Source: Sandaracinus amylolyticus (GTDB taxonomy: Bacteria > Myxococcota_A > Polyangia > Polyangiales > Sandaracinaceae). Taken from it: a DNA stretch of 64,000 bases. Every line of letters starts with the position of its first letter. The first letter of the stretch is position 1. Both the position numbers and the translations under genes were made by a program. Under the pieces are notes generated by a model, which saw only the letters and a list, made by a program, of their open reading frames with translations, made no database searches and was not told where the DNA came from. Below, piece by piece: positions 4,452-50,558 of this stretch. Location: positions 124,001 through 188,000 of the forward strand of contig NZ_CP011125.1 of assembly GCF_000737325.1 (NCBI RefSeq). The letters run 5' to 3'.

Positions 4452-4796
4452 ATGTACCTGGCCGTCCGCAAGTACCGGAAGGTGGAAGGCGACGAGAAGG
4501 AGCTGATGGCGCGCATCCAGCGCGGCTTCGTCCCGCTGATCTCGCGAATCGACGGATTCGTCGACTACTACTGCTTCATTGCCGAGGATGGCTCGCTGAT
4601 CTCGGTGAGCGTCTACCGGGACGAGCGCGGCGCGGAGGAGTCGGTGCGCGCGGCCTCGCGGTTCGTCGAGCAGCAGCTCGCCGAGTTCCTCCCCGAGAAG
4701 CCGGAGGTCATCGCCGGCGAGGTGCTCGCGCATGCATCGGGCCAGAGCCGCGGCGAGCTCACGACCAACGCAGCGCGAGACGATCGTCGTCCGTGA
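4452..4796 (+). CDS. Small antibiotic-biosynthesis-monooxygenase-like protein
   Basis: A 114-residue ferredoxin-like alpha/beta protein (MYLAVRKYRKVEGD, then FVPLISRIDGFVDYYCF and ISVSVYRD) resembling ABM-domain or stress-responsive dimeric barrel proteins. The longer frame begins with a GTG at 4383 overlapping the VOC stop, but those extra residues are Arg-rich and unconserved in look. The ATG at 4452 follows a purine-rich GAGAGG and starts the domain. It may be the third gene of the MarR operon. Its 3' end overlaps the convergent CapA gene by 38 bp. Whether it is an enzyme or just shares the fold is not clear. Confidence 0.7.
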   Translation: MYLAVRKYRKVEGDEKELMARIQRGFVPLISRIDGFVDYYCFIAEDGSLISVSVYRDERGAEESVRAASRFVEQQLAEFLPEKPEVIAGEVLAHASGQSRGELTTNAARDDRRP

Positions 4797-5871: not shown

Positions 5872-5924
5872 CGCGCGGAGGGCGTGCACGATCGAGTCCT
5901 GCGGGACCGTGCTACTGGGATCGC

Positions 5925-6728: not shown

Positions 6729-6748
6729 CGCGGGCGCGCGAAACCGAC

Positions 6749-6754
6749 TAACGT
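6749..6754 (+). promoter_or_regulatory. -10-like hexamer TAACGT, 10 nt before kinase start
   Basis: TAACGT ends 10 nt before the ATG at 6765, with CTGACG 18 bp upstream as a plausible -35. Transcription would begin at or just before the start codon. Confidence 0.45.
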
Positions 6755-6764
6755 CGCGCTCCGG

Positions 6765-8627: not shown

Positions 8628-8629
8628 TC

Positions 8630-9232
8630 ATGGCGACCAAGAAGACGACGAAGACCGCGAGCGCGCTCGACCAGCTCGAGCGCCTGCAGCCCGAGGATCG
8701 CGCCGCGTGGCGCGCGTGGCTCGCCAAGCACCACGAGACCTCGCGCGGCGTGTGGCTCGTCACCTACAAGAAATCGAGCGGCAAGCAGACGTTCGACTAC
8801 GAGCAAGCGATCGAAGAGGCGCTCTGCTTCGGATGGATCGACAGCAAGGCCTCGAAGCTCGACGACGAGCGCACGATGCTGCTCTACACGCCGCGCAAGC
8901 CGAAGAGCGTGTGGTCCAAGCCCAACAAGGAGCGGGTCGCGCGGCTGCTCGCGGCGGGACGCGTCGAGCCGCGCGGGCTCGACGCGATCGAGCTCGCGAA
9001 GCGGACCGGCGCCTGGGACGCGCTGAACGACAGCGACGCGCTGAAGGTCCCCGACGATCTCGCGGCGCGCCTCGACGCGCTCCCGAACGCGCGCGCGCAC
9101 TTCGAGGCGTTCCCGAAGTCCACCAAGCACATGATCCTCGAGTGGATCCGCACCGCGAAGAAGCCCGAGACGCGCGCGGCGCGGATCGAGCAGACCGCGA
9201 CGCTGGCCGCGAAGAACCTGCGCGCGCGCTGA
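8630..9232 (+). CDS. YdeI/OmpD-associated family protein
   Basis: A 200-residue protein matching the bacteriocin-protection YdeI/OmpD-associated family: a Lys/Thr-rich start, then WLAKHHETSRGVWLVTYKKSSGK, EALCFGWIDSKASKLDDERTMLLYTPRKPKSVWSKPN split across about residues 60-100, and a helical tail ending in HFEAFPKSTKHMILEWI and ARIEQTATLAAKN. The ATG at 8630 is 2 bp after the kinase stop, so the two are probably co-transcribed. The family's biochemical role is poorly known; related proteins have been linked to peptide or bacteriocin tolerance. No signal peptide is visible, so it is cytoplasmic. Confidence 0.82.
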   Translation: MATKKTTKTASALDQLERLQPEDRAAWRAWLAKHHETSRGVWLVTYKKSSGKQTFDYEQAIEEALCFGWIDSKASKLDDERTMLLYTPRKPKSVWSKPNKERVARLLAAGRVEPRGLDAIELAKRTGAWDALNDSDALKVPDDLAARLDALPNARAHFEAFPKSTKHMILEWIRTAKKPETRAARIEQTATLAAKNLRAR

Positions 9233-9272
9233 CGGATGACGCCCGCCGCCGCGGGGACCATCTGGATCGCGG

Positions 9273-10271
9273 ATGTCTGCGAGCGCGCCTCACGGAGCGA
9301 CTCGGATCCGCGATCTCGGCCTGACGATCGAGGGCACGCGCCTCGAGCGGGTGTGCCAGCGCTTCCTCGCCGAGTGCGACGCGCTGGGGCTCCCCTTCCG
9401 GCCACGGCTGTATCTCTCGACGGAGTGGGGCGTCCCGTTCGGCACGATCGCGATCGCGATCCCGTTCTATCTCGCGCACCCCGAGCTCGAGCGGCTGCAG
9501 CTCGAGCGCTTCGGTCACGTCGAGGGCTACGCCGAGTACGACGTGCTCCGCTACCTGCGCCACGAGATGGGGCACGTCGTCAGCTACGCGTACCGGCTCT
9601 ACGAGCGCGAGGACTTCGTCGAGCGCTACGGCTCGATCACGCGCCCCTACGTCGAAGACTACCGGCCCGAGCCGTTCAGCCGCGCGTTCGTGCGGCACCT
9701 GCCGGGCTGGTACGCGCAGAAACATCCCGACGAGGACTGGTCCGAGACGTTCGCGGTGTGGATGACGCCGGGCCTCGACTGGCGTCGCGAGTACGCGGGG
9801 TGGCCCGTCGCGCTCGCCAAGCTCGAGCACTGCGATCAGACGATGCGCTCGCTGCGCGGGCGCCCGCCGATCGTGCTCGAGGACGCGCTCGATCTGCCGG
9901 TGAGCGAGGTCGACGCGACGCTCGACGAGGTGTACCGGCCGCTCGACGACGAGTCGCTGCCGCCCGGCATCGAGGGCGCGCTCAAGGCGGTGTTCGACGA
10001 TCTCGGCAACGACTCGAGCGCGCCGCGCGGCGAGCAGAGCGCCGCGACGTTCATGCGCGCGCTCGAGCGGCACCTGCCCGCCGAGGTGTACCGCTGGACC
10101 GGGCACTTCCCCGAGCGCACGCACGCGCTGCTGCGCGCGATGGAGCGCATCGCGCAGCACCTCGATCTCCGCGTGCGCGCCGGCGACGAGGCGCGCTGCA
10201 CGATCGCGCTCACCGCGCTCGTCACCGCGCTCGCCGAGAGCTGGGTGCGCCACGGCACCTATCTTCCTTGA
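9273..10271 (+). CDS. Putative zinc metallopeptidase
   Basis: A 332-residue protein with a clear HExxH zinc site, H97-E-M-G-H101, and a downstream acidic segment DWSETFAVWMTPGLDW that could supply the third zinc ligand. This layout matches the bacterial 'putative zinc-binding metallo-peptidase' family (Peptidase_Mx type). No signal peptide is visible, so it is probably cytoplasmic. The C-terminal 100 residues are helical. It is followed 6 bp later by the symporter gene on the same strand, but the two functions have no obvious link. Confidence 0.75.
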   Translation: MSASAPHGATRIRDLGLTIEGTRLERVCQRFLAECDALGLPFRPRLYLSTEWGVPFGTIAIAIPFYLAHPELERLQLERFGHVEGYAEYDVLRYLRHEMGHVVSYAYRLYEREDFVERYGSITRPYVEDYRPEPFSRAFVRHLPGWYAQKHPDEDWSETFAVWMTPGLDWRREYAGWPVALAKLEHCDQTMRSLRGRPPIVLEDALDLPVSEVDATLDEVYRPLDDESLPPGIEGALKAVFDDLGNDSSAPRGEQSAATFMRALERHLPAEVYRWTGHFPERTHALLRAMERIAQHLDLRVRAGDEARCTIALTALVTALAESWVRHGTYLP

Positions 10272-10277
10272 GCGACG

Positions 10278-11546
10278 ATGCGGGGAGACCGGCACGCGAT
10301 CGGGATCCTCGTCGGGCTCGTGATCGGCGCGGGGCTCGGCGCGCTCGCGCACGCGCTCTTCGCGGGACATCCGGTGCTCGATGGCGTCGTTCGCTACGTG
10401 ACCGAGCCGATCGGCGACGTGTTCCTGCGCCTCTTGTTCATGCTCGTGATCCCGGTCGTGGTCTCGTCGCTCGCGACCGGGATCGCGGGGCTGCGCGATC
10501 TGCGCGCGCTCGGCCGCGTCGGGCTGCGCACGCTCGGCTTCACCGTCGTGGTGTCGTCGATCGCGGTGCTGCTCGGCATCGTGATGGTGAACGTGCTGCG
10601 TCCCGGTGACGGCCTGTCGAGCGCGGCGCGCGAGCAGCTCGTCGCGTCGGCGACGAGCCCGCCGGTCGACGCGGCGGCCGAGCGCTCGCCCGGTGATCTC
10701 TTCGTCGAGCTGGTCCCGTCGAACCCGTTCGCCGCGATGGCGGCGGGCGACATGCTGCCGATCATCGTGTTCGCGGCGCTGCTCGGCGTCGGGCTCGTGC
10801 TCACGCGCACCGACGACGCGCGGCGCTTCGAGGACGCGCTGCGCGGCCTCAACGACGTGCTGCTGCGCCTCCTCCAGCTCGTGCTGCGCGCCGCGCCGCT
10901 CGGGGTCGCGTGCCTGCTCTTCACGAAGACCGCGCAGCTCGGCTGGGCGCTGCTCGGACAGCTCGCGGGCTACGTCGGCACCGTGCTCGGCGCGCTCGCG
11001 ATCCAGCAGCTCGTCGTCTACCCGCTGGTCGTCCGGGTGATCGGTGGGACGAGCCCGCGCGCGTTCTTCCGCGGGGCGCGCGACGCGATGCTCACCGCGT
11101 TCGCGACCGCGTCGAGCAGCGCGACGTTGCCCACGTCGCTGCTCGTCGCGGAGCGCGAGCTCGCGCTGCCCCCGCACGTGAGCCGCTTCGTGCTCACGGT
11201 CGGCGCGACCGCGAACCAGAACGGCACCGCGCTGTTCGAGGGGATCACCGTGCTGTTCCTCGCGCAGCTCTACGGCGTCGAGCTGAGCGTGGGACAGCAG
11301 GTGATCGTCGTGCTGGTGTGCATCCTCGGCGGGATCGGGACCGCGGGCGTGCCCGCGGGATCCCTCCCCGTGATCGTGATGCTCTGCGGGATGATCGGCG
11401 TGCCCGCCGAGGGTGTCGGCATCGTGCTCGGCGTCGACCGGCTGCTCGACATGTGCCGGACGACGCTCAACGTGACCGGCGATCTCGTCGCCGCGGTCGT
11501 GGTCTCGCGCGGCGAGCCGCCCGCGATCACTCCCGCTCGTTCTTGA
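10278..11546 (+). CDS. Na+/H+:dicarboxylate (DAACS family) symporter
   Basis: A 422-residue membrane transporter of the glutamate/dicarboxylate:cation symporter family. Signatures are the serine-rich re-entrant loop SSSATLP from residue 279, ATANQNGTALFEG with NQNGT at 313-317 in place of the usual NMDGT, and the final-helix motif DRLLDMCRTTLNVTGD. It imports C4-dicarboxylates or acidic amino acids with Na+ or H+ across the inner membrane. The M-to-Q change in the NMDGT motif could alter cation or substrate preference. Its 3' end overlaps the convergent H1-like gene by 20 bp. Confidence 0.92.
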   Translation: MRGDRHAIGILVGLVIGAGLGALAHALFAGHPVLDGVVRYVTEPIGDVFLRLLFMLVIPVVVSSLATGIAGLRDLRALGRVGLRTLGFTVVVSSIAVLLGIVMVNVLRPGDGLSSAAREQLVASATSPPVDAAAERSPGDLFVELVPSNPFAAMAAGDMLPIIVFAALLGVGLVLTRTDDARRFEDALRGLNDVLLRLLQLVLRAAPLGVACLLFTKTAQLGWALLGQLAGYVGTVLGALAIQQLVVYPLVVRVIGGTSPRAFFRGARDAMLTAFATASSSATLPTSLLVAERELALPPHVSRFVLTVGATANQNGTALFEGITVLFLAQLYGVELSVGQQVIVVLVCILGGIGTAGVPAGSLPVIVMLCGMIGVPAEGVGIVLGVDRLLDMCRTTLNVTGDLVAAVVVSRGEPPAITPARS

Positions 11547-12012
11547 GCACGTCCGCGAGGAACGAGAACTGATCGAGCAGCGCGGGATCCTGGCGCGCGT
11601 GGTACTTCACCGCCGCGTGGAGCTCGAGCAGCGCGCTCCACGCCTCGCCCTCGCGCACCAGGCGCGCGTCGGAGAGCGGACGCAGCGAGCGCGCCTGCTT
11701 CGCGGCGAGCTCGCGCTCGCGCTCCGCGGCCTTGCCGGCCTGGGTGCCGAGGCGCGTGAGCTTCGCGAGCGTGAGGCCGGGCACCTTGAGCCTCGGCGTG
11801 GCCTCCCAGGTGTCGAGCGCGCGCTCGAGCACCTGCTCCCAGCCCTCGCGCGGCTTCGGCACGCGCTGTCGCGCGTCGGCCGAGAGCACGATCGGCTCGC
11901 GCTTGCTCGCGCTCTTCTTGCTCGTCTTCGTGATCGTCTTCTTGGTCGCCTTCGCGACGGTCTTCTTCGCGGCCTTCTTGCGCGTCGCCGGTGTCTTCTT
12001 GCGGGTCGCCAT
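11527..12012 (-). CDS. Histone H1-like Lys/Ala-rich protein
   Basis: A 161-residue protein. The first 37 residues are almost only K, A, T, R and S in KKA/KKT patterns like eukaryotic histone H1 tails and bacterial H1-like proteins, so nucleic-acid binding is likely. Residues 38-161 form a helical domain not recognised (EGWEQVLERALDTWEATPRLKVPGLT and similar). A Shine-Dalgarno-like GGGAGGGC precedes the ATG. Upstream on the same strand are a TAGGAT -10 (12038-12043), a weak TTGAGA -35 with a 19-bp spacer, and an array of phased palindromes, suggesting strong regulation. Confidence 0.72.
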   Translation of the reverse strand: MATRKKTPATRKKAAKKTVAKATKKTITKTSKKSASKREPIVLSADARQRVPKPREGWEQVLERALDTWEATPRLKVPGLTLAKLTRLGTQAGKAAERERELAAKQARSLRPLSDARLVREGEAWSALLELHAAVKYHARQDPALLDQFSFLADVLKNERE

Positions 12013-32387: not shown

Positions 32388-35207
32388 ATGCTGCACCGCC
32401 CGCGCGCCGCCTGCGCGCCGCTCTGCTTCGCCTTCGTGCTCCTCGCTTGCTCCGATCCAGCCGATCCCCCGGGTGACGACGGCGGGTCGCAGCGCACGTG
32501 CGAGCGCGATCTCGACTGCGCCGACGACCTCTTCTGCAACGGCGCGGAGCGCTGTGCGCCCGACGATCCCGACGCCGACGAGCGGGGCTGCGCGCCCGCG
32601 ACGAGCGAGCGCTGCGAGGAGACGCAGGCCTGCGACGAGGACGACGACGCGTGCCGCAGCGACTGCGCCGTCGCGCCCGACGCCGACGGAGACGGCGCCG
32701 AGGCGATCGAGTGCGGCGGCGACGACTGCGACGACGCCGAGCGCCGCGCGTTCCCCGGCAACGTCGAGCTCTGCGATCCCGAGGGCCTCGACGAGGACTG
32801 CGATCCCACGACGCTGGGCCCCGACGGTGACGTCGACGGCTTCGTGCGCGCGACGTGCTGCAACCTCCAGCGCGACGGCTCGCTGCGCTGCGGCGACGAC
32901 TGCGACGACGCGAACCGCGAGGTGAGCCCCGACGCGCCCGAGGTGTGCGGCCCGCGCGACGACGACTGCGACACGCGCGTCGACGAGATGCTCTCGGGGG
33001 CGTTCCACGCGGACTGCGACGGCGACATGTTCGGCGGAGCGACCGGCGAGATGGTGCTCGGCTGCGCGCCGCCGCCGGTCGTCCCTGCGAGCTGCGGGAG
33101 CGCGCCGCTCGCGCGATGGTCGGACAACGACGACGACTGCGACGACGCGCGCGCCGGTCGCAACCCCGGGAACCCCGAGGTCTGCAACGGCATCGACGAC
33201 GACTGCGACCTCCGGACGGACGAAGGCTTCGAGGACGCGAGCTACCACCCCGACTGCGACGGCGACGGGCACGGCGCGGCGGGCGGCGAAACGTCCGCGG
33301 GATGCACGCCGCCGCCCGTGCTCCCTGCGAGCTGCGGGAGCGCGCCGAGCGCGCGATGGGCCCTCGGCGTCGACGACTGCGACGATGCGCGCGCCGCGGT
33401 GTACCCCGGCGCCGTCGAGGTGTGCGGCAACACGATCGACGACGACTGCGACACGCGCACCGACGAGGGCGGCACGCCGTTCCATCCCGACGGCGACGGC
33501 GACGGCTTCGGCCGCTCGGGGTCGACCGCGGTGATCGCGTGCAGCGCGCCCGCGGGCCACTCGCCGAACGCGAGCGACTGCGACGACACGCGCGCGTCGG
33601 TGCGGCCCGGCGCGCAGGAGCTCTGCGACGGAACGCGCGACGACGACTGCGACGGCGCGGTCGACGAGCTGCCGGCCGCGGCGATCGGCTGCGGATCGGT
33701 CGCGGGCACCACGTTCGGGTGCAGCGCGGGCACGTGCGAGATCACCGCGTGCGCCGCGCCGCGCGACGACTGCGACACGACGGTCGACAACGGATGCGAG
33801 TCCGACACGTCGACCTCGCGCTCGCACTGCGGCGCGTGCGGCAACGAGTGCACGACCGGTCTCTATTGCGCGGCGAGCGCGTGCCGTCCGCGCCACGTCT
33901 GGTCGTACACGGTCGGCGGCAGCGGGTCGGGCTTCGACGTCGTCGACTCGATGGTGATCGACGGCGCGGGCAACGTGACGGCGGTCGGTCTCTTCGCGGG
34001 CGCCGCGAGCTACGGGCCGACGTCGGTCACGACGCTGGGCATGCAGGACGGATACGTCGTGAGCTACACGCCCGCGGGCGCGATCCGCTGGTCGCAGCGC
34101 GTCGGCGGCGCGGGCGCGACCTCGATGCTCACCGAGATCGCGCGCGACGCCGCCGGAAACGTGTTCGTGGTCGGGCACTTCGACATGGCGATCAGCGCCG
34201 GGAGCGGCACGCTCGCGTCGGTCGGCGGCACCGACGTCGTCGTCGCGAGCTACACGGCGGGTGGAGCGCATCGCTGGTCGCGCCGCTTCGGCGGAGCGGG
34301 CGGCGAGCTCGCGAAGTCGATCGCGGTCGATCCCGCGGGCAACGTGATCGTCGCGGCGCTGATCAACGGCGTCTTCGACGTCGGCGGCGGGCCGATGGGC
34401 ACCGCGACGCGCAGCTCGATGGTCGTGCTCTCGCTGAGCAACGCGAGCGGCGCGTACCAGTGGGCGCGCGCGATCACGCCCGCGAGCACGAACGGCGTGC
34501 AGCCCGAGCGCCTCACCACCGACGCGAGCGGCAACGTCCATGCGGTCGGCTACTTCAGCAACGCGACCGACTTCGGCACCGGGACGCTCACGCCGATCGG
34601 CAACGACGTCTTCGTCGTCTCGCTCTCGCCCGCGGGCGCGACGCGGTGGGTGCGGCACATCGGGAGCAGCGGCGTCGACCTCGGGCGCGCGATCGCGATC
34701 GAGCCCGGCGGCGACGTGATCGTCGCGGGCGAGTTCGACGACACCGTCGACTTCGGCACCGGCTCGCTCTCGGCGCGCGGCGCGACCTGGCGCGACGTGT
34801 TCGTCGCGCGTCTCGACGCTGCGACCGGCGCGACCGAGTGGGCGCGTCGCTTCGGCGACGTCGAGAGCGAGATCGTGCACGCGGTCGCGGTCGACGCGAG
34901 CGGCGAGATCTTCGTCGGCGGGAGCTTCGACGGCGTGGTCGACTTCGGCGGCGGCGTGGTCACCGGCACGAGCGGCAGCGCGTCGGGGTCACCGTTCCTG
35001 CTCGGGCTGAGCTCGACCGGGGCGTACCGCTTCGTGCGCGCGATGAGCGGCGACGGATCGCTCGCGTCGATCGCGCCGAGCGCATCGCGGCTCCACGTCG
35101 GCGGCTCGTTCGGGCGCAGCATGGACGTCGGAGGAGGCGCGCTCCCCGCGTACGACGCGCTGAACAGTGTCTCGCCCGACGGATGGATCGCGGTCTACGA
35201 GCGTTGA
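32388..35207 (+). CDS. MopE-repeat and beta-propeller lipoprotein
   Basis: A 939-residue lipoprotein (lipobox LLAC21). Residues about 35-430 are Cys/Asp-rich and carry five complete MopE-type units, each DDCDD...PG..E.C followed by (I/R)DDDCDxxxDE, the motif of the Methylococcus MopE metal-binding family. Residues about 500-930 are repeated propeller blades (VDSMVIDGAGNVTAVGLFAG, EIARDAAGNVFVVGHFD, SIAVDPAGNVIVAALING, RLTTDASGNVHAVGYFSN) as in SBBP-like repeats. Calcium or copper binding is inferred from the family. It probably stands on the cell surface. Confidence 0.85.
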   Translation: MLHRPRAACAPLCFAFVLLACSDPADPPGDDGGSQRTCERDLDCADDLFCNGAERCAPDDPDADERGCAPATSERCEETQACDEDDDACRSDCAVAPDADGDGAEAIECGGDDCDDAERRAFPGNVELCDPEGLDEDCDPTTLGPDGDVDGFVRATCCNLQRDGSLRCGDDCDDANREVSPDAPEVCGPRDDDCDTRVDEMLSGAFHADCDGDMFGGATGEMVLGCAPPPVVPASCGSAPLARWSDNDDDCDDARAGRNPGNPEVCNGIDDDCDLRTDEGFEDASYHPDCDGDGHGAAGGETSAGCTPPPVLPASCGSAPSARWALGVDDCDDARAAVYPGAVEVCGNTIDDDCDTRTDEGGTPFHPDGDGDGFGRSGSTAVIACSAPAGHSPNASDCDDTRASVRPGAQELCDGTRDDDCDGAVDELPAAAIGCGSVAGTTFGCSAGTCEITACAAPRDDCDTTVDNGCESDTSTSRSHCGACGNECTTGLYCAASACRPRHVWSYTVGGSGSGFDVVDSMVIDGAGNVTAVGLFAGAASYGPTSVTTLGMQDGYVVSYTPAGAIRWSQRVGGAGATSMLTEIARDAAGNVFVVGHFDMAISAGSGTLASVGGTDVVVASYTAGGAHRWSRRFGGAGGELAKSIAVDPAGNVIVAALINGVFDVGGGPMGTATRSSMVVLSLSNASGAYQWARAITPASTNGVQPERLTTDASGNVHAVGYFSNATDFGTGTLTPIGNDVFVVSLSPAGATRWVRHIGSSGVDLGRAIAIEPGGDVIVAGEFDDTVDFGTGSLSARGATWRDVFVARLDAATGATEWARRFGDVESEIVHAVAVDASGEIFVGGSFDGVVDFGGGVVTGTSGSASGSPFLLGLSSTGAYRFVRAMSGDGSLASIAPSASRLHVGGSFGRSMDVGGGALPAYDALNSVSPDGWIAVYER

Positions 35208-40593: not shown

Positions 40594-40645
40594 GCACGCG
40601 CGCACGCTGGTGCCGCGTCCCACGCGCGTGCAGCATGGGCGACGC

Positions 40646-41239
40646 ATGTGGTCCTGGCTCCGCGGCAAGACCGCTCCATCGATCGCCGAGCCGCCGCGCG
40701 ACGTCATCGTCCCGCGCGTCTACGACGCGCGCCTCGCGGACGAGCTCGTCGGCGTGCTCGAGCGCGAGCGCGACGTGATGATCCTCGAGCCGCTCGTGGG
40801 CGAGCTGGTCATCGGGTACGGCTTCGACCTGCCTCGCCGATACCAGGGCGTCGCGCTGCGCGATCTCGAGCGGCTCGGCATCGCGACGTCGGAGCTACGC
40901 GGCGTCGCGACCGACAACCTGCTGCGCATGCTGGGAGACCGCGTCTATTGCGTGCAGGCCGGACCGCTCTTCGAGGTGCGGGTCGGGCATCATCTCGACG
41001 CGAGCACGCTCGTCGTCGACGCGTTCTGGGATGACCTCCGCGACGAGCTCGAGGCGGACGTCGTGGTGGCTGTCATCGATCGCGATCACGTGCTCGCGTG
41101 CTCGGTGGAGAGCACGGAGACGGTCGAGACGCTCGCGCTGATCGTCTCCGACGAGGCCGAGCGGTCCGGGCGTGTTCTCTCCGAGGATCTCCTGCTCTGG
41201 ACCGGCGCTTGGGAGCTCCTCGACGAATCCGATGCGTGA
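40646..41239 (+). CDS. DUF1444-like protein
   Basis: A 197-residue protein. The core LVGELVIGYGFDLPRRYQGVALRDLERLGIATSELRG-VATDNLLRML (in parts), FEVRVGHHLDASTLVVDAFWDDL and VVAVIDRDHVLACSVES match the DUF1444 pattern of a small alpha/beta protein of unknown function. No signal peptide or TM. It lies 52 bp after the giant HEAT-like gene on the same strand and may be co-transcribed. A hairpin follows its stop, between it and the convergent MopE/FGE gene. Confidence 0.68.
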   Translation: MWSWLRGKTAPSIAEPPRDVIVPRVYDARLADELVGVLERERDVMILEPLVGELVIGYGFDLPRRYQGVALRDLERLGIATSELRGVATDNLLRMLGDRVYCVQAGPLFEVRVGHHLDASTLVVDAFWDDLRDELEADVVVAVIDRDHVLACSVESTETVETLALIVSDEAERSGRVLSEDLLLWTGAWELLDESDA

Positions 41240-41243
41240 GCAC

Positions 41244-41265
41244 GCGCGCCGCTCTCACGGCGCGC
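41244..41265. terminator. Hairpin between convergent genes
   Basis: 8-bp arms GCGCGCCG (41244-41251) and CGGCGCGC (41258-41265) with a 6-nt loop; it overlaps the last codons of the minus-strand gene. Confidence 0.5.
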
Positions 41266-43660
41266 TCGTCCGGCAGCACCGGAAGCCGACGCCCGGCGTC
41301 GCGTACGCGTCGCCTGCGACGACGAAGTCGAACTGGCACGTGGTGCCGCCGCTCGGGCTCGTGCTCGACCCGCCGCGCAGCGGGTTCACGCCGGCGGCGC
41401 GACGCTCGGTCCACTCGGCGACGTTGCCGCTGAGATCGTAGACGCGCGCGCTTCCCCAGCTCGCGTAACACATCGCGCGGGCGCCGGTCGCGAGCACGTC
41501 GTCTTGATCGCCCGACGCCGAGCCAGTGTCGTTCTCGTTGCCGTTGCACGTGCTCGCCGAGAACGTCGAGCACCCCGACGCGTACGACCACGTGCACGCC
41601 GAGCCCGCGCTCGTCTCGCACGCGCGCTCCCACTCGCCCTCGGTGCAGAGCCGCGCGCCGACGCTCGCGCACGCCGCCTGCGCCTGCGCGTACGTGACGT
41701 TCACCCACGGCCGCCGCCCCGGCTCGGAGCACACGCGATGGCTCGCCGACCCCGCGCTCGTCGCGCTCGCGTCGGGGCGCGACGCTTCGTACGCCATCAC
41801 CCAGCGCGTGCCGAACGCACCGGAGATCGGCGTCCACTGGCCGGGTGCGCCTTCGTCGAGGCGACCGTCGCAGTCGTCGTCGCGATCGTTGCACGTCTCG
41901 GCGCTGCCTCCGCCGCCCGCGGGCGCGGTGCACACTGCCGCGCTCCCCGTCGCGTTGCACACGTAGCTGCCGGTGCGCCGGCACGCGCCGAGCTCGCCGT
42001 TGCTGCACGACGTGCCGACCTGCGGGAACGGATCGTCGACGCGCCCGTTGCAGTCGTTGTCGAGCCCGTCGCAGCGCGTCTCGCTCGCCTGGTGGGTCGC
42101 GGGGTAGTCGCAGGTCCAGCCCGCAGCGCCCGCGCATCGCGCGGTCGTGCCGGCGCAGACGCCGTTCGGATTGCAGAGCGCGGCGGGCGCGGCGACGCCC
42201 TCGTCGACGCGCGTGTCGCAGTCGTCGTCGCGCCCGTTGCACAGCTCGGCGCCCGCGATGCTGCACGCGAGCTCGCACCCGTTCGCCGGGTTGCGATCGG
42301 CGTCGACGTAGCCCGGCAGGCACGGGCCGATCGCGCAGCTGCCCGCGCTGCACGTCGCGACCGCGTTCGTGAACGTGCACACGCGACCGCAGGTGCCGCA
42401 GTTGCGCGGATCGATCGCGAGCGCGAAGCCGTCGTCGACGGTGCCGTTGCAGTCGTCGTCCGCGCCGTTGCACACCTCGAGCGCGGGGCCGGTCGCGCCG
42501 GCGCACGAGAGCGCGCCGCCCACGCACGAGAGCGCGCCTGCCGTGCACGCGCCGGTGTCGGTGCCGCACGACGCGCCGCCGCCGGGATTGCCCTCGTCGA
42601 GGCGCGCGTCGCAGTCGTCGTCGATCGCGTTGCAGCGCTCGGTGCTCGGGCCGACCGCGCCGACGCAGACGAGCGCGCCCGAGGTGCACTGCTCGCGGCC
42701 CGGCTCGCACGCGCCCTCGCCGCTGCCGCAGTAACGACCGCCCTCGGGGTTGCCCTCGTCGGTGCTTCCGTCGCAGTCGTCGTCGTCGCCGTTGCACACC
42801 TCCGTCGTGGTCGACACGCCTCCGGTGCAGGTGAGCGCGCCCGAGACGCAGCGCAGCGTGCCCGATGCGCACTCGCCGGCATCGCTCCCACACGCGCCGC
42901 CGCCGCCGGGATCGCCTTCGTCGACCCGACCGTCGCAGTCGTCGTCGCGCAGGTTGCAGGACTCCGTCGCGGGCACCGCGGGCGTGCACGCGTACTCGCA
43001 TCCGTTGGTGCTCACACGATCGAGGTCGTGATGCCCGGGCTCGCACGCGCCGAGCGCGCACGCGCCGTCGACGCAGCTCGCCGCGGCGTGCGCGGCCCGG
43101 CAGACGCGGCCGCATGCTCCGCAATTCGCGGGATCGGCGGCGAGGTCGAAGTCCTCGTCGATCGTGCCGTCGCAGTCGTCGTCGCGGCGATCGCAGCGCG
43201 CGTCGCGCTCGTCGCTCGGCAGGCAGCGGTACTCGCAGCCGTTCGCGGGATCGCCGTCGAGGTCGACTCGACCGACGTCGCACGACTCGATCGTGCACGC
43301 GCCGGCGACGCACGCGCCGAACGCACCGATCGGAGCGCATCGAGCGCCGCACGCACCGCAGTGCTCGAGGCTCGTCGAGGTGTCGACGCCCTCGTCGGTG
43401 CGCCCGTCGCAGTCGTCGTCGAGCTCGTTGCAGCGCTCGACCGCGCCGCCGACGCAACCGTCCGGCTCCTCGCCGGCGTCGATGGCGGCGTCGAGCGCGA
43501 CCCACGCATCGAGCCCGCCGTCGTGCGGCGCCGCATCGCCGGCGTCGACGTCACCGCCGTCGGCGACGCCCACGCACGTGAAGCAGTACGGGTCGAGCTC
43601 GCACGCGGTGAGCGACCCGCCGAGCGCGGCGATCGCGAGGACGCGCCCCACGCGGCTCAT
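41255..43660 (-). CDS. MopE-repeat lipoprotein with C-terminal formylglycine-enzyme-like fold
   Basis: An 801-residue lipoprotein (MSRVGRVLAIAALGGSLTAC20). Residues about 65-605 contain nine half-MopE motifs of form (V/R)CNGxDDDCDGxxDEG separated by Cys pairs, plus CGACGRVC-type Stig1-like units. The C-terminal 195 residues match the FGE-sulfatase/SUMF1 fold: ARLCTEGEWERAC, YDLSGNVAEWTE, LRGGSS and VGFRCC. The paired active-site cysteines of true formylglycine-generating enzymes are not evident, so it may serve as a binding (lectin-like) domain. Its ATG overlaps the stop of the upstream VWA gene. Confidence 0.87.
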   Translation of the reverse strand: MSRVGRVLAIAALGGSLTACELDPYCFTCVGVADGGDVDAGDAAPHDGGLDAWVALDAAIDAGEEPDGCVGGAVERCNELDDDCDGRTDEGVDTSTSLEHCGACGARCAPIGAFGACVAGACTIESCDVGRVDLDGDPANGCEYRCLPSDERDARCDRRDDDCDGTIDEDFDLAADPANCGACGRVCRAAHAAASCVDGACALGACEPGHHDLDRVSTNGCEYACTPAVPATESCNLRDDDCDGRVDEGDPGGGGACGSDAGECASGTLRCVSGALTCTGGVSTTTEVCNGDDDDCDGSTDEGNPEGGRYCGSGEGACEPGREQCTSGALVCVGAVGPSTERCNAIDDDCDARLDEGNPGGGASCGTDTGACTAGALSCVGGALSCAGATGPALEVCNGADDDCNGTVDDGFALAIDPRNCGTCGRVCTFTNAVATCSAGSCAIGPCLPGYVDADRNPANGCELACSIAGAELCNGRDDDCDTRVDEGVAAPAALCNPNGVCAGTTARCAGAAGWTCDYPATHQASETRCDGLDNDCNGRVDDPFPQVGTSCSNGELGACRRTGSYVCNATGSAAVCTAPAGGGGSAETCNDRDDDCDGRLDEGAPGQWTPISGAFGTRWVMAYEASRPDASATSAGSASHRVCSEPGRRPWVNVTYAQAQAACASVGARLCTEGEWERACETSAGSACTWSYASGCSTFSASTCNGNENDTGSASGDQDDVLATGARAMCYASWGSARVYDLSGNVAEWTERRAAGVNPLRGGSSTSPSGGTTCQFDFVVAGDAYATPGVGFRCCRTSAP

Positions 43661-46600
43661 CGCGCACCTCCTTCGCCGGCGCGGCGCCTTCGCGCGCGTC
43701 TGCCGAGCACGAGCGCGAGCGCGACGAGGCCGAGCAGCGCAGGCATCTCGCTCTCGCTTCGCGCAGCACCGACCGCGCAGATCGCGCCGCCACCGCCCGC
43801 GGCGACCACGCGCACGTCGTCGTCGCCGCTCGTGCCCGCGTCGATGCGGCCGCCGTCGCGCGCGACGCCCGCGTCGACGTCGCGCGCTTCCTGGGCGCAG
43901 TCGCCGTCGATGCAGATCTGCCCGGCGGGGCAGCGCAGCGCATCGCACGGATCGACGCCGCACTCGCCGGTCACCGGCGCGCACACCGTCCCTTCGGGGC
44001 AGACGCGCCCGGCGCAGCGATCCTCGACGCAGTCGCCGCTCGCGGGATCGCACACCTCGCGCGCCGCGCACTCGACGTCGGCGCACCGATCGATCTCGCA
44101 CGCGCCCGCGTGACAGCGCGCGCCGGGCGGGCACTCGACGTCGGCGCAGCTCGTCTCGCAGACGCCGGCGCGGCACGCGAGCGCGTCGTCGCAGTCGGTC
44201 GTGGCGCAGGGATCGGGCACACACGCGCCGGTCGCACGATCGCAGAGCTCGCCGTCACCGCAGCCGAGCCCGCGGCAGTCGTCCTCGACGCAGCGCCCGG
44301 TGGTGTCGCGCGGGTCGCACGCGAGCCCCGGCGGGCACTGCACGCCCGCGCACGCGAACGTGCACTCGTTGTTGCGGCACACGCAGCGCGCGACGTCGTC
44401 GCTCTCCGGCGCGCACGCGACCTCGCCTGCGAGCTCGACCGTCTCCGTCGCGCAGCGCGCGTCGTCGCAGCGATCCGCGACGCAGTGACAGACGCCGTCC
44501 TCGACGCGCGGGGATCGACCGGTCGGGCACTGGTACCCGAACTCGCCGTCGACGCACGGGCGCGCGCACTGGCAGTCGACGCACGCGCTCCCCGGCGGAC
44601 AGAGGCTGCCCGAGGGCGGCGGCTCGTCGGTCGCGCCGTCGCAGTCGTTGTCGTCGCAGTCGCAGACCTCGACGTCGGGCGGGACCTCGCCCACGCAGAT
44701 CTCGACGCCACCGACGCAGCGCAGCGCGCCCGCCATGCAGAGCCCTTCGTCGGCGCCGCACGTCGCGCCGTCCGCGAGCGCTTCGTCGATCCGGGTGTCG
44801 CAGTCGTCGTCGAGCAGGTTGCACGCCTCGGCCGTCGGGCCGATCGCGCCCGAGCACACGAGCGTGCCGCTCTCCGCGTCGCACACGTTCACGCCCGGGA
44901 CGCACTCGCCGACGTCGCTCCCGCACGCCGCGCCGACCGGGATCTCGTCGTCGATCGCGCCGTCGCAGTCGTCGTCGAGGCCGTTGCACACCTCGGCGCT
45001 CGGGCCCGCGCCGCCGTCGCAGACGAGCGTGCCGCCGCGACATCGCGTGGTCCCGGCGGAGCACTCGCCGGTGTCGTCGCCGCAGGGCGCGCCCGCCTCG
45101 GGATCGCCCTCGTCGACGCGGGTGTCGCAGTCGTCGTCGAGCGTGTTGCAGAGCTCGCCGCGCGGACCGCGCGCGCCGCTGCACACGAGCGCGCCGCCGG
45201 TGCACTGCAGCGTCCCGAGGTGGCACTCGCCGACGTCGCTCTCGCCGCACGACGCGCCACCGCCGGGGTTGCCCTCGTCGACGCGACCGTCGCAGTCGTC
45301 GTCGTCGCCGTCGCAGACCTCGCTCATCGGTCCGACGCCGCCGGTGCAGGTGAGCGTGCCCGCGACGCAGCGCAGCGTCCCGCCGCGACACGCGCCCACG
45401 GTGCTCCCGCACGCCGCGCCGCTGCCCGGGTCGCCCTCGTCGACGCGCGTGTCGCAGTCGTCGTCGCTCGCGTTGCAGCGCTCGGTCGTGGGATCGATCG
45501 CGCCGATGCACGCGCCGTAGCTGCCGGCGGTGCACGCGCGCGAGCCGCGCTGGCACGCGCCGGTGTCGCTCCCGCACGGCTCGACGAAGCCGTCGACCGC
45601 GCCGTCGCAGTCGTCGTCGAGGCCGTTGCACGTCTCGGTGCGCGGCCCCGTCGAGCCGACGCAGAGGCCCCACTCGCCGCTGCCTCCGACGACACACGTC
45701 TGGGTGCCGGCGGTGCACTCGCCGACGTCGGTGCCGCAGGGCCGCGTGAGCGGTCCCTCGTCGACGCGGGTGTCGCAGTCGTTGTCGAGCCCGTCGCAGA
45801 TCTCGGGCGCGGGCGCGGGGCAGCTGCACGCGCGCTCGTCGATCGCTCCGTCGCAGTCGTCGTCCGCGGCGTTGCACACCTCGGACGGCGCGGGCCCGCA
45901 CGAGCCGCACGCGTTCACGAGCCCTTCGTCGATCGCGCCGTCGCAGTTGTCGTCGGTGCCGTTGCACACGCGCTCGCCGGGATCGGCGCACAGTCTCGGC
46001 GCGCTCACGCCGCCCGGGCGATCGCAGTAGAGCGTGAAGCCCTCGTCGATCCGGGTGTCGCAGTCGTCGTCGGCGCCGTTGCACGTCTCGAAGCGCGTCG
46101 AGTCCGCGATGATCTGCGAGAACGCGAGCGCGAGGCTCGTCTCGTCGGTCGCGTAGAAGCCGCGGCTCGCGCCCGGCGCGTCGGTGCCGCCCGCCGCCGC
46201 GATCGCCTCGATCGCCGCGTCGCCCGCGGGCACGCCGAACCCGATCACGTACGTGCGGATGTCGTACGTCGTGCCGCCGACGGTCGTCGATCGCAGCAGC
46301 GACGCGGCGCTGCGCGCGTCACCGCCGCACGTCTCCTCGCCGTCGGTCAGCAGGATCACGTTCACCGGGCGACACGCGCCGAAGGTGTCGCCGACGAGCG
46401 GGCTCGCACCGCCCGTGTAGTACGCGCGCGCAGCGAGGAGCGCGCCGCCGAGCGGGGTGTTGCCGCTCGCGACGAGCTCGGGGTCGGTGCCCGGCGCCAT
46501 CGCGCTGCACTGGTCGCACGAGAAGTCGACCCACTCGAGGATGTCGCGCTGGTTGTCCGCGCGGACCGGCACGATCACCTGCCCGCTCGACGCCGTCGCG

Positions 46601-46938
46601 GTGCAGCTCGCGCTGCAGCTGCAGTTGCACGTGCCACCGGCGCAGCTCCGGCATCGCCCGCTGCAGCTCTGCGCGAACCGCTCGAGCCCGAACGTGACGT
46701 CGCCGTAGCCGTTGACGACGCGCTGGAGGACGCACTTCGCGTCGTTGAGGCGCACGCGCGGCTGCCCGCACGAGTTGTCGCCGCCTCCGGTCGACGCGTC
46801 CATCGAGCCGGATGTGTCGAAGATCACCAGGAAGTACGGCGAGACCGTGGCCTGCGCCTCGGCGACGTCCGCCGTCGCCCACACCGCGCAAGCCGAGACG
46901 AGCGCCACGAAATGCCAAGCCCATCGCGCGAAGCGCAT
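43657..46938 (-). CDS. VWA domain, MopE-repeat surface protein with C-terminal anchor
   Basis: A 1093-residue exported protein. The signal peptide ends near AEAQ29. A von Willebrand A domain (about 33-285) has a complete MIDAS: D41-T-S43-G-S45, the Thr in GNTPLGGA and the Asp in ILLTDGEE, so it should bind a metal and a ligand. Inserted Cys clusters (CSGRCRSCAGGTCNCSCSASC) decorate it. Eleven CNGxDDDCDxxxDE half-MopE motifs follow (about 290-690), then EGF-like Cys repeats (about 690-1010). The end has a hydrophobic helix and RRARRRR, a sorting or anchor tail. The ATG at 46938 gives the best signal peptide. Confidence 0.88.
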   Translation of the reverse strand: MRFARWAWHFVALVSACAVWATADVAEAQATVSPYFLVIFDTSGSMDASTGGGDNSCGQPRVRLNDAKCVLQRVVNGYGDVTFGLERFAQSCSGRCRSCAGGTCNCSCSASCTATASSGQVIVPVRADNQRDILEWVDFSCDQCSAMAPGTDPELVASGNTPLGGALLAARAYYTGGASPLVGDTFGACRPVNVILLTDGEETCGGDARSAASLLRSTTVGGTTYDIRTYVIGFGVPAGDAAIEAIAAAGGTDAPGASRGFYATDETSLALAFSQIIADSTRFETCNGADDDCDTRIDEGFTLYCDRPGGVSAPRLCADPGERVCNGTDDNCDGAIDEGLVNACGSCGPAPSEVCNAADDDCDGAIDERACSCPAPAPEICDGLDNDCDTRVDEGPLTRPCGTDVGECTAGTQTCVVGGSGEWGLCVGSTGPRTETCNGLDDDCDGAVDGFVEPCGSDTGACQRGSRACTAGSYGACIGAIDPTTERCNASDDDCDTRVDEGDPGSGAACGSTVGACRGGTLRCVAGTLTCTGGVGPMSEVCDGDDDDCDGRVDEGNPGGGASCGESDVGECHLGTLQCTGGALVCSGARGPRGELCNTLDDDCDTRVDEGDPEAGAPCGDDTGECSAGTTRCRGGTLVCDGGAGPSAEVCNGLDDDCDGAIDDEIPVGAACGSDVGECVPGVNVCDAESGTLVCSGAIGPTAEACNLLDDDCDTRIDEALADGATCGADEGLCMAGALRCVGGVEICVGEVPPDVEVCDCDDNDCDGATDEPPPSGSLCPPGSACVDCQCARPCVDGEFGYQCPTGRSPRVEDGVCHCVADRCDDARCATETVELAGEVACAPESDDVARCVCRNNECTFACAGVQCPPGLACDPRDTTGRCVEDDCRGLGCGDGELCDRATGACVPDPCATTDCDDALACRAGVCETSCADVECPPGARCHAGACEIDRCADVECAAREVCDPASGDCVEDRCAGRVCPEGTVCAPVTGECGVDPCDALRCPAGQICIDGDCAQEARDVDAGVARDGGRIDAGTSGDDDVRVVAAGGGGAICAVGAARSESEMPALLGLVALALVLGRRARRRRAGEGGAR

Positions 46939-47105
46939 GCAGCCAACCCCCCCTGCCGGTGCCGCGACACGACGCATCGCGCAGCACGCGAGGCGTGATC
47001 CCGCGCCTCAACTCCGCGCCGCGCCGTGCGTCTCCAAGTCCGATCGCCGTGCACACCGCATCGGCGTCGCGTGCTCGGGCTCACCGAGCAGATGCCGCGC
47101 GCGGG

Positions 47106-47120
47106 TATGCTCGCGGGATG
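47106..47120 (+). promoter_or_regulatory. -10-like TATGCT and ATG just before the intron
   Basis: TATGCT (47106-47111) lies 6 nt before an ATG (47118-47120) that directly precedes the intron's GTGCG 5' end. This is probably the original promoter of the hydrolase lipoprotein gene that now starts at 49176. Confidence 0.5.
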
Positions 47121-47609
47121 GTGCGTCGTGACGCAGACGAAGGTCGAGCCGTAGGGCCGACGTCTGCGCGCTGCGCTTCTCCTGCGGGTGAGAGTCCCGC
47201 CTCGGTAGGCACCGGAGCGGCGAGTAGCAGGCCCCGGGCGTCGGGAGAGATCCCGTCGTCCCGAGCGGGGCGTCGAAAGCCCGTCAGGCAGCGAGAGCTG
47301 TGCAGCGGGGAGCAAGATCGCGGGCCGCAACATGAAGTGAAGCCTGCAGCCTCGTCAGATGAACAATCCGAGAGCCGAGCCGCTCATTTCACGGCGAAGG
47401 CCACGCTCGAAGCGTCTGTTCCGGAGCGCGCATCGAGTCTCGGCGGGGTATGGGGCGCAGCACGCGATCACGGAGAAGCGCGGAACACGAGAGGCCCGTC
47501 TGCGCAGCCCTCGTCGGGGCGAAGCGCGCCGTATAAGCCGAAGGCGAAATCGGCCGCCGCGCAGCGGGAGTCCGAGGGGATCGTAGTACCGCACGGCATC
47601 GCCACGGCG

Positions 47610-49061
47610 ATGTCGACGAACGTCGTGCAGAACAACGCGACGGGAGGGAAGGGTCCCTGGGGCAGTCACGTCGAGGAAGCAGGTAAGCGCGAGGGAATGG
47701 CCGGCAGGACCGGACCTAACGACCCCGGCGGCCGTAGGCCGCGCGAAGAAGTGCGACAACTGCAGAGGCGACTGTGGGTCGCGGCCAAGCGAGCACCTGG
47801 AAGACGTTTTCACGCTCTTTATGACCACATCTGGAGGAGTGACGTCCTTCGGGAAGCGTGGAAGCGAGTCGAGGCGAACAAGGGCGCGGCGGGCGTCGAT
47901 GGCCAGACGATCGCCGAGGTGAAGCAGTACGGAGTCGAGCGCTTCCTCGAAGAGCTCGGCGAGGCACTGCGGAGCAAGACGTACCGGCCCGAGGTGGTGC
48001 TGCGCCGGTACATCCCGAAGGCAGATGGAAGGAAGCGGCCGCTGGGGATTCCGACGGTCCGGGATCGAGTGGTCCAGATGGCGGCGAAGCTGGTGCTGGA
48101 GCCGATCTTCGAGGCGGACTTTCTTCCGTGCTCGTGGGGCTTCCGGCCGAAGCGGGGCGCGCTGGGTGCGCTGGAGACGCTGAGGAAGCTCGGCGCGAAG
48201 AGGCATCACCACGTGCTCGACGCCGACATCCGCGACTACTTCGGGAGCATCGATCACGACAAGCTGATGAAGCTGGTCGCTCGACGCATCTCGGATCGGC
48301 GGATGCTCAAGCTGGTGCGGCAGTGGCTCGAAGCGGGCGTGATGGACGGGGGCGTCGTGACTCGCAACATCGCGGGAACGCCGCAGGGCGGAGTCATCTC
48401 TCCGCTGCTCTCGAACATCTACCTGCACGTGCTCGACGTGACGTGGATGCGTAAGAGCGCCCCGCTCGGGACGCTGGTGCGCTACGCGGACGACTTCGTC
48501 GTGATGTGCAAGACGAAGCGCGAGTGCGAAGAGGCAGAGAGGCGCATTCGAGTCATCCTCGGGCGCCTCGGTCTCGAGCTGCATCCGGACAAGACGAGGC
48601 GAGTCGAGCTCTACGACGGCAAGCAGGGCTTCGATCTTCTCGGACATCACCTGCACAAACGCATGAGCGGAGCGCTGTGGGAGAAGAAAGGCAGACGCCT
48701 CTATTTCCTGCATCGCTGGCCGTCCGCGCGCGCGATGAAGCGGGTGAGACAGCGCGTGAAGGAGCTGACTCCGATGAGGCGGTGCCACGCGGATCTCCGC
48801 GAGGTGATCGCCGATCTCAACCCCGTGCTGCGGGGCTGGGGCAACTACTTCCGCACCGGAAATGCCGCCAAGAAATTCAACCAACTCGACAGCTACGTCT
48901 GGCGTCGGCTGCGGGACCTGCGCGTGGAGCGCAAGGGCCGGCATCTGAAGCCGGGGGAGTCGAGCAGGTGGACGCGCGAGTACTTCTGGAGCCTCGGACT
49001 TCATCGCCTGCGAGGGACCGTGCAGTACCCCGAGCGAGCCTTCTTCCAGGAGGTCGCGTAA
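47610..49061 (+). CDS. ltrA: Group II intron reverse transcriptase/maturase
   Basis: A 483-residue protein with the reverse-transcriptase domains in order: KGAAGVDGQTI and YRPEVVLRRYIPKADGRKRPLGIPTVRDRVVQ, then ADIRDYFGSIDH, TPQGGVISPLLSNIYLH, the catalytic RYADDFV (Y292-A-D-D295) and LHPDKTRRV. The maturase domain X (HADLREVIADLNPVLRGWGNYF) is near 390-415. No HNH endonuclease domain follows. The frame is open far upstream, but the ATG at 47610 begins the known protein part; earlier residues are translated ribozyme sequence. It would splice the intron and drive its retrohoming. Confidence 0.93.
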   Translation: MSTNVVQNNATGGKGPWGSHVEEAGKREGMAGRTGPNDPGGRRPREEVRQLQRRLWVAAKRAPGRRFHALYDHIWRSDVLREAWKRVEANKGAAGVDGQTIAEVKQYGVERFLEELGEALRSKTYRPEVVLRRYIPKADGRKRPLGIPTVRDRVVQMAAKLVLEPIFEADFLPCSWGFRPKRGALGALETLRKLGAKRHHHVLDADIRDYFGSIDHDKLMKLVARRISDRRMLKLVRQWLEAGVMDGGVVTRNIAGTPQGGVISPLLSNIYLHVLDVTWMRKSAPLGTLVRYADDFVVMCKTKRECEEAERRIRVILGRLGLELHPDKTRRVELYDGKQGFDLLGHHLHKRMSGALWEKKGRRLYFLHRWPSARAMKRVRQRVKELTPMRRCHADLREVIADLNPVLRGWGNYFRTGNAAKKFNQLDSYVWRRLRDLRVERKGRHLKPGESSRWTREYFWSLGLHRLRGTVQYPERAFFQEVA

Positions 49062-49086
49062 TGCAGCGACTCGAGAGACTGCCCGT

Positions 49087-49120
49087 AAGCCGTGTGCGGG
49101 AAATCCGCACGCACGGTTTG
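49087..49120 (+). ncRNA. Group II intron domain V
   Basis: 34-nt catalytic hairpin with the AGC triad near its start, a GAAA-type tetraloop region and the pairing GTGCG/CGCAC. It lies 26 nt after the maturase stop, as usual. Confidence 0.85.
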
Positions 49121-49175
49121 AACGGGGGTCTTGACCAACCGCCGGCGCAGGCCGGTAGCAGGTAAGGATCTACCA

Positions 49176-50558
49176 ATGACGTCGCTGCGCGCTCCGCTGT
49201 GGGTCTCGATGCTGCTCGCGCTCTGCGCGTGCGACGACGGTGCGCCGGCCGAGCCGCTCGATGCGTCGACACCGACGCCCGACGCGCCCGCGGCGCGCGC
49301 GTGGTCGTTCGAGACGATCGCGACGCAGACGATCACCGCGGTCGAGGTTCCGCGCCAGGTCGAGCTCGTGCGCGCGACGCGGCCCGACGGCGCGTCGAGC
49401 TACCTGCTCTACGTGCCCGCCGCGGCGGCCGGCGCGCCGCTCGTCGTGATGAACGAGCCCTACGCGGGCATCCGCTGGACCGGCGAGGACGTCGACGCGC
49501 GCTGGGCCGCGCTCGGCGCGGGCGTGCATCCCGACGTCGACGCGGCCGGGTACGACGGCGACGACGTGATCGCGTACCAGGAGCAGACGGTGCAGCAGGC
49601 GGTCGACGGCGCGATCGCGTGGCTCGTCAACGGCTTCGCCGTCGTGCACGCGTACGCGCGCTTCTACGGCGGCGGCTCGCTCGAGGACGACGTGCTCGAC
49701 GCCGCCGCGCCCTATCACTTCGCGCTCTCGCGCGCCGGCGACGGCTCGCTCGACGTCGCGCGCATCGGCGCGTTCGGCGGATCGTGGGGCGGGATGATGG
49801 CGCTCTACGGCGCGTCGCGCGCCCCCGAGGGCGCCGCGCCCGTCGCGGTCGTCGCGCTCGCGCCGCCGAGCGACTTCGCCGATCTCTGGGCGCACACCGA
49901 CGCGCTGCCCGGCGTGTTCCCGCAGCCCGACGCGGCGCGCGCGTTCTACTCGCCGTACCGGCGGCGCATCGCCGCTGCGACCGGCGGTGCGCCCGGCGAG
50001 GGCGACTTCGCGCCCTATCGCGCCGACGCGCTCTGCGCGGGGCTGCGCGGCCGCGCGCTCGTGCCGCACGACGAGTGGGACGTGCTCGTGCCCTTCGCGC
50101 AGACCACCACGCTCGAGTCGACCTGCGGCGATCGCGTCGAGCCGCTGATCTGGCATCGCCAGGGCGCGACGATCGACTACGCGCGCGTCGGCCTCGATCA
50201 CGGTCCGCTCACGCAGGAGCCCGGCTTCGCGAGCTGGACGACGTTCGCGATCACCTGGCTCGCGAGCGAGCTCGCGGGCCCGAGCGCGCCGCTCGTGGTG
50301 ACCGTCGGCGCGAGCGCGGGGCTCGAGGCGTTCCTCGGCACGGTGCGCGACGAGCAGCTCGCAGGAGGCGATCCGATCGAGGCGCTGCCGCGCCTGCGCG
50401 AGCTCGCCGCGCCGCGGGTGCGCGCGTGGGACGTGGCGAGCGAGACGTTCGTGCTCGGCGCCGACTTGCTCGCGACCGCGGTGAACGCGGTGTACGGCAC
50501 GACCTACGACGGCGCGACGCTGCGCGCCGCGCTCGACGATGGCCTGCCGACGCCCTGA
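49176..50558 (+). CDS. Alpha/beta hydrolase lipoprotein
   Basis: A 460-residue lipoprotein (MTSLRAPLWVSMLLALCAC, lipobox CAC19). Motifs include PLVVMNEPYAGIRWTGE, the nucleophile elbow GAFGGSWGGMMALYG, an acid region (HDEWDVLVPFAQT) and a late His in GLDHGPLTQEPG, the order of an esterase/peptidase-like hydrolase. The C-terminal 110 residues are not recognised. The ATG follows the end of the group II intron by 2 bp; the intron supplies TAAGGA as a Shine-Dalgarno-like sequence about 9 nt before the ATG. Before insertion it would have been read from the promoter at about 47106. Confidence 0.8.
   Translation: MTSLRAPLWVSMLLALCACDDGAPAEPLDASTPTPDAPAARAWSFETIATQTITAVEVPRQVELVRATRPDGASSYLLYVPAAAAGAPLVVMNEPYAGIRWTGEDVDARWAALGAGVHPDVDAAGYDGDDVIAYQEQTVQQAVDGAIAWLVNGFAVVHAYARFYGGGSLEDDVLDAAAPYHFALSRAGDGSLDVARIGAFGGSWGGMMALYGASRAPEGAAPVAVVALAPPSDFADLWAHTDALPGVFPQPDAARAFYSPYRRRIAAATGGAPGEGDFAPYRADALCAGLRGRALVPHDEWDVLVPFAQTTTLESTCGDRVEPLIWHRQGATIDYARVGLDHGPLTQEPGFASWTTFAITWLASELAGPSAPLVVTVGASAGLEAFLGTVRDEQLAGGDPIEALPRLRELAAPRVRAWDVASETFVLGADLLATAVNAVYGTTYDGATLRAALDDGLPTP

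Follow-up and report, generated by a model that had tools for sequence, protein, structure and literature searches.

The window analysed here, a 64,000-nucleotide stretch of the Sandaracinus amylolyticus genome (contig NZ_CP011125.1, positions 124,001 to 188,000), carries on its minus strand two adjoining genes whose products, P0001 and P0002, each contain an array of short, Cys-bracketed motifs of the MopE family (Table 1). A first reading of the sequence alone had described two large exported proteins that overlap by 4 bp, and their coordinates, frames and ATGA overlap proved correct. Its counts of eleven motifs in gene 1 and nine in gene 2 also hold, and PF11617 matches the two proteins with E-values of 1.5e-24 and 9.5e-31, respectively. 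We find that similar pairs recur in other genomes, that motif numbers in the two partners are closely matched, and that the two genes are repeatedly fused. With moderate confidence, we propose that the pair forms one surface complex with two heads and two matched stalks.

Table 1. Features of the gene pair, in window coordinates
Feature	Position	Strand	Extent in protein	Basis
Gene 1 (P0001), exported protein with VWA domain, MopE repeats, Cys-rich region and MYXO-CTERM-like tail	43657..46938	-	1093 amino acids	translation, Pfam, relatives
VWA domain with complete metal-dependent adhesion site	46087..46854	-	residues 29-284	invariant residues, profile and fold matches, AlphaFold2
MopE array of gene 1, 11 short motifs, mostly in ~54-residue units	44623..46083	-	residues 286-772	Pfam, motif count
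Cys-rich region (EGF-like by eye only), limits approximate	43894..44622	-		sequence; unnamed by Pfam
MYXO-CTERM-like tail: VVAAGGGGAIC, hydrophobic helix, then RRARRRR (Arg-rich end)	43660..43809	-		TIGR03901, 10.3 bits
ATGA overlap of gene 1 stop and gene 2 start, 4 bp	43657..43660	-		same in copies B, C and D
Gene 2 (P0002), lipoprotein with MopE repeats and formylglycine-generating enzyme (FGE)-fold domain	41255..43660	-	801 amino acids	translation, Pfam, relatives
Lipoprotein signal, lipobox LTAC, then ELDPYC	43601..43660	-		sequence; C-x-x-DP[YF] recurs among relatives
MopE array of gene 2, 9 short motifs	41852..43432	-	residues 77-603	Pfam, motif count
FGE-fold domain without catalytic Cys pair	41258..41848	-		PF03781, AlphaFold2, structure matches

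In P0001, a signal peptide evident in the sequence precedes the VWA domain. The metal-dependent adhesion site (MIDAS) is complete, as had been proposed: its D, S, S, T and D residues (DxSxS, T, D) are invariant in all 30 aligned relatives. A profile built from these relatives matches complement factor B (7.9e-08), and Foldseek searches with a model of the domain retrieve BatB, complement C2 and pilus adhesins, consistent with a Rossmann-like VWA fold (AlphaFold2 mean predicted local distance difference test score, pLDDT, of 78.8 for the VWA domain plus first repeats). Pfam does not name a VWA domain in P0001 itself at E<=1; among its relatives, copy C of the pair and one further family member score above the Pfam VWA cut-off, and copy D slightly below it. 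The EGF-like repeats of the sequence-only reading correspond to a Cys-rich region, but the likeness to EGF was judged by eye, and Pfam returns no EGF match there at E<=1. Its proposal of an anchor in gene 1 survives in part. A Cys, a transmembrane stretch and an Arg-rich end are present at the tails of copies A to D and of relatives, and the MYXO-CTERM model TIGR03901 (cut-off 20 bits) accepts copies C (27.3 bits) and D (20.2), the fused form L132 (21.4) and L170 (29.6), but copy B (17.3) and the window's copy fall below its cut-off.

P0002 begins with a signal peptide and lipobox, recognised by sequence with no dedicated predictor. Its C-terminal domain matches PF03781 (E 5.8e-10; 39.7 bits, above the Pfam cut-off of 23.3), is modelled with a mean pLDDT of 91.6, and retrieves CalU17, SUMF2 and FGE in Foldseek searches. 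At the catalytic Cys site, between RGG and C266, none of 42 relatives has a Cys, so that the Cys pair of aerobic FGE is missing and the domain agrees with its first description as an FGE fold without evident catalytic cysteines. In a profile alignment, the Cys following RGG falls on the third Cys of that stretch in human FGE, which we take to be non-catalytic, the catalytic pair being the other two. Because the fold is common to FGE, EgtB and SenA, gene 2 could in principle encode an enzyme, of FGE, EgtB or sulfoxide-synthase type, that modifies the gene 1 product or its ligand. The absence of the catalytic Cys pair from all 42 relatives, together with the invariance of the domain's nine other Cys, as in a disulfide-held extracellular domain, makes this explanation very improbable.

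The pair is real and recurrent. In the genome of origin, a VWA query finds four places and an FGE query seven, and each of the four best FGE places adjoins a VWA domain; all four pairs share the ATGA overlap, and wherever separate-gene junctions could be resolved, the start of gene 2 is offset by -4 or -1 from the gene 1 stop. Within the class, 81 of 144 genomes have a VWA match and 105 an FGE match (E<=1e-15). The class pairing count is based on 150 matches listed for each domain, out of more that exist; among these, 84 VWA matches have a same-strand FGE match within 15 kb, compared with 0.78 expected by chance. Sixty-one of these 84 pairs have the VWA domain first and in another frame, 14 have both domains in the same frame and 9 have the FGE domain first. 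These counts clearly contradict the possibility, named with the sequence-only reading as its refutation, that the two genes seldom adjoin in other genomes. A VWA domain is also present at 31 of 46 loci found with the FGE profile, which are labelled Myxococcota or members of it, Deltaproteobacteria or 'bacterium', and 59 of 235 genomes of the phylum contain an FGE match at E<=1e-25. Many relatives come from metagenome-assembled genomes. Distances among the heads of the two partners agree with each other (Mantel r 0.61, compared with a permutation maximum of 0.13).

Two loci, L170 and L172, carry tandem-duplicated VWA genes with near-identical C-terminal parts before one single FGE lipoprotein gene. 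A fifth locus, copy E (L023, positions 4701-11843, plus strand), is a single 2380-residue frame with 11 and 9 motifs in which the heads are replaced by DUF4114 and BNR, and a ~21-nucleotide tandem repeat lies exactly at the junction of its halves. When the flanks of 94 loci were compared in search of a third partner, no family of neighbouring genes recurred beyond 10 loci (the query plus nine others), and by eye these are generic kinases.

The numbers of motifs in the two arrays are strongly correlated. In 50 unique pairs with a recognisable lipobox (HMMER searches with --max), 3-22 motifs follow the VWA domain and 3-19 precede the FGE domain (r 0.97). The relationship is retained in 49 independent contrasts on the VWA tree (r 0.966; 37 of the same sign, none opposite and 12 zero), for which permutation gives a maximum of 0.46, and is found both in separate genes alone (r 0.978, n=27) and in fused genes alone (r 0.954, n=23). 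When the lipobox filter is removed and later loci are added, 77 unique pairs give r 0.967, with 60 pairs differing by no more than 2 motifs and 74 by no more than 3; for this set, fused frames were split at their longest motif-free gap, and 12 VWA frames were dropped, 6 without an FGE frame and 6 truncated at the ends of loci. With a relaxed motif, r is 0.956. Spacings near 108 in L022 and L130 conceal missed motifs, and L207 reads as 12/12 by motif spacing. By comparison, Pearson correlations of the gene 2 motif number with six other segment measures lie between -0.16 and 0.16, including pre-VWA length (-0.07), Cys-rich region (0.11), VWA (-0.16), FGE (0.04) and linker (0.02); for Cys-rich length, the Spearman coefficient is 0.46.

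What appears to be conserved is the number of units. In a group of 4/4 pairs, the arrays are ~144 and ~219 residues long and yet equal in motif number, suggesting that unit number rather than residue number is maintained. The 12 pairs of the Sandaracinaceae type have about two more motifs in gene 1 than in gene 2. In 11 of the 12, the gene 2 array is 37-61 residues longer, while gene 1 arrays span 358 to 952 residues; the twelfth pair (L032) has a stray motif near the tail. In L043, a block is repeated three times in both arrays, with lengths of ~289 and ~292 residues as summed from spacings.

Two explanations would separate these patterns from a physical association. In the first, inter-array recombination or a genome-wide tendency causes both arrays to grow, such that numbers are matched by mutation and not by selection, and similar ~54-residue units are indeed found in both arrays. 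However, the mean likeness between units of the two partners, 0.500, barely exceeds the 0.476 obtained for unrelated loci, and the maximum is 0.74; this speaks against conversion between arrays. In addition, a single genome holds pairs with 4/4, 11/9, 13/10 (13/11 with the relaxed motif) and 19/17 motifs. We therefore consider mutational matching quite unlikely. In the second, an adhesin with a VWA domain and a lipoprotein with an FGE fold are needed simultaneously and are co-expressed, but never touch. Contact between the partners is something we infer, and the heads are exchangeable, as the DUF4114 and BNR domains of copy E illustrate. Physical independence would nevertheless leave both the matching of motif numbers, seen in 77 pairs and under contrasts, and the repeated fusion to be explained, and we regard it as unlikely. 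The earlier suggestion that the pair may form a two-protein system thus receives strong support from the matched numbers.

In 24 unique fused frames, the MopE arrays flank a junction that retains both sorting signals back to back: GGxxC, a hydrophobic stretch, a Lys/Arg-rich loop, a second hydrophobic stretch and the lipobox Cys. Where the first Cys is correctly picked, the two junction Cys are 50-67 residues apart; larger apparent distances reflect the choice of an earlier Cys. Further such junctions are visible in L028, L134, L139, L143 and L144, and it is the internal signal of the fused L132 that TIGR03901 detects. On a tree of 53 pairs, at least eight changes occurred between the fused and separate states. 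The MYXO-CTERM model, in the available part of its description, comprises Cys lipidation, cleavage by myxosortase and export by the type II secretion system (PMC11980579). If both signals function as they do elsewhere, the hairpin between them would be excised and the same two lipidated proteins would remain.

The motif itself bears on the proposal that the pair is a metal-binding surface system. PF11617 matches in the pair begin at profile positions 11-13, whereas those in a MopE-repeat protein elsewhere in the window begin at position 1, confirming that the pair lacks the first half of the MopE unit. That other protein (positions 32388-35207, plus strand) contains complete units and in part matches a Leptospira SBBP beta-propeller lipoprotein model. 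MopE-family motifs are strikingly numerous in this genome, with 146 matching places in many frames; the pair uses the second half-unit only. The acidic, Cys-bracketed motif resembles the calcium loop of EF-hand and TSP3 repeats (D-x-D-x-DG-x-x-D); Pfam reports no EF-hand or TSP3 match in the pair at E<=1, and the repeat block has no credible relative in the PDB. From the acidic loops, calcium binding is plausible, and calcium is reported to protect MopE against proteolysis in the available text of PMC3423442.

As regards calcium, then, the metal-binding proposal is a plausible one, but not as regards copper. The Pfam name of PF11617, Cu-binding_MopE, and the matches to it could point to a system for copper acquisition or storage. 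In the available account of MopE, though, the known copper site consists of two His and kynurenine, and these residues lie outside the short motif (PMC3423442). The motif contains no His, Met or Trp, and His is scarce in both proteins (4 of 1093 residues in P0001 and 7 of 801 in P0002). Copper binding by the pair is not supported, and a copper system is hardly likely.

The domains, pairing, fusion and motif-number matching, as read from the sequences, are best accommodated by a single two-headed, two-stalked surface complex. Gene 1 would place its head (VWA, with extra or other domains in other copies) towards the N-terminus and end in a C-terminal anchor of MYXO-CTERM type, and gene 2 would combine an N-terminal lipoprotein anchor with a non-catalytic, lectin-like FGE-fold head at the C-terminus. 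Each head would sit atop a stalk made up of MopE units with paired Cys and acidic loops, probably stiffened by calcium. Since the two proteins are anchored at opposite termini, both heads would be directed away from the membrane, and since unit numbers are matched, the heads would stand at equal height and could jointly bind a ligand or bind each other. The simplest use of such an arrangement would be a composite head, with the VWA/MIDAS and C-type-lectin-like FGE domains side by side. The genes are presumably translationally coupled when not fused into one chain; in the latter case, cleavages of myxosortase type and LspA type would remove a ~50-60-residue membrane hairpin to give two lipid-anchored proteins. 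The VWA/MIDAS domain and the lectin-like FGE fold suggest a role in adhesion; the likely functions are attachment to cells, to matrix or to prey, or else kin recognition.

Several observations weigh against this complex. The tail of the window's copy scores 10.3 bits against a cut-off of 20, and the best match to the myxosortase model in its own genome, at 92 bits with a cut-off of 180, may be only a relative of myxosortase. The fused L207 seemingly has no membrane hairpin. Asp follows the lipobox Cys in several gene 2 relatives, and under the E. coli rule this would keep the lipoprotein at the inner membrane, unless it is carried onward by a secretion system. Among the listed VWA matches, 66 of 150 have no listed FGE match within 15 kb; some of these are cut by contig ends, and others probably are not. 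Three of the 77 pairs are mismatched by 4 or 5 motifs (22/17, 13/9 and 13/9), and outside the Sandaracinaceae-type group, arrays can differ in residue length despite equal motif numbers. Finally, contact between the partners, their location at the surface and their binding of a ligand are all matters that we infer.

A more specific and more tentative possibility is that the complex is a self-measuring twin-stalk receptor. Its two lipid-anchored chains, held at the C-terminus in one case and at the N-terminus in the other, would have stalks that pair unit by unit, such that evolution must alter both repeat numbers together. It would be made either from two coupled genes or from a polyprotein; in the latter, a pair of intramembrane peptidases would excise the central membrane hairpin, composed of the MYXO-CTERM and lipoprotein signals, and each would leave a lipid behind.

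A group II intron with a reverse transcriptase (~47182-49144, plus strand) separates gene 1 from the following gene on the plus strand and ends shortly before the start of that gene. The end of the intron occurs in eight copies of ~100% identity in the genome, so the intron has moved recently, and the pair's promoter may be influenced by it. Variable proteins of diversity-generating retroelements (DGRs) share the FGE fold, and Mtd and TvpA are among the structure matches of the P0002 model. We rejected a DGR target because the adjoining reverse transcriptase belongs to the group II intron; moreover, no direct repeats of >=40 nucleotides in 40600-50000 touch the FGE 3' end. The VWA domain alone would suggest PilY1, an identity we also set aside; according to the available text of PMC13190605, no pilY1 cluster is present in S. 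amylolyticus DSM 53668.

As a rule, repeat-stalk adhesins change length on their own; here, two different proteins keep matched numbers over a range of 3 to 22. Such matching can be read from sequence and put to the test as a sign that two proteins pair physically on the surface of a bacterium. The back-to-back sorting signals would also lend themselves to examining how MYXO-CTERM proteins are lipidated and cleaved, steps that are not yet settled. For Polyangia, the family provides a candidate contact or recognition system. A search of open-licence PMC papers found no literature on this pair, and in our judgement, which is based on that literature, both the pair and the motif-number matching between partners are undescribed.

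Known systems resemble the pair in part. GldK/PorK and SUMF2 use the FGE fold in non-FGE roles, and PorK is a lipoprotein, but they have neither a MopE stalk nor a VWA partner, and PorK belongs to a secretion ring. TraA and TraB, of Myxococcus outer membrane exchange, differ in having no MopE stalk; TraA has a PA14-like head and Cys-rich repeats, TraB is not known to be a repeat lipoprotein, and we know of no matched stalks in this system. Like the present pair, they are two partners, and the available part of PMC11980579 describes TraA as a receptor on the cell surface that carries a MYXO-CTERM anchor. MopE of Methylococcus has the short motif PF11617, but shares the second half-unit alone, and its copper site is formed by non-motif residues in the portion available of PMC3423442. 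The Bdellovibrio MIDAS adhesin Bd0875 is likewise a surface VWA/MIDAS protein acting at cell-cell contact, but is a small single lipoprotein with no repeat stalk, and the available text describes no comparable partner (PMC11003981). Periscope proteins such as SasG, Rib and SHIRT carry a head on a tandem-repeat rod of variable repeat number, but are single proteins for which the accessible part of PMC9704523 describes no repeat-matched partner. That part also reports correlated lengths of two surface structures, YadA and the injectisome needle (PMC9704523); those are unrelated machines, whereas here the two proteins come from one operon and are built from the same unit.

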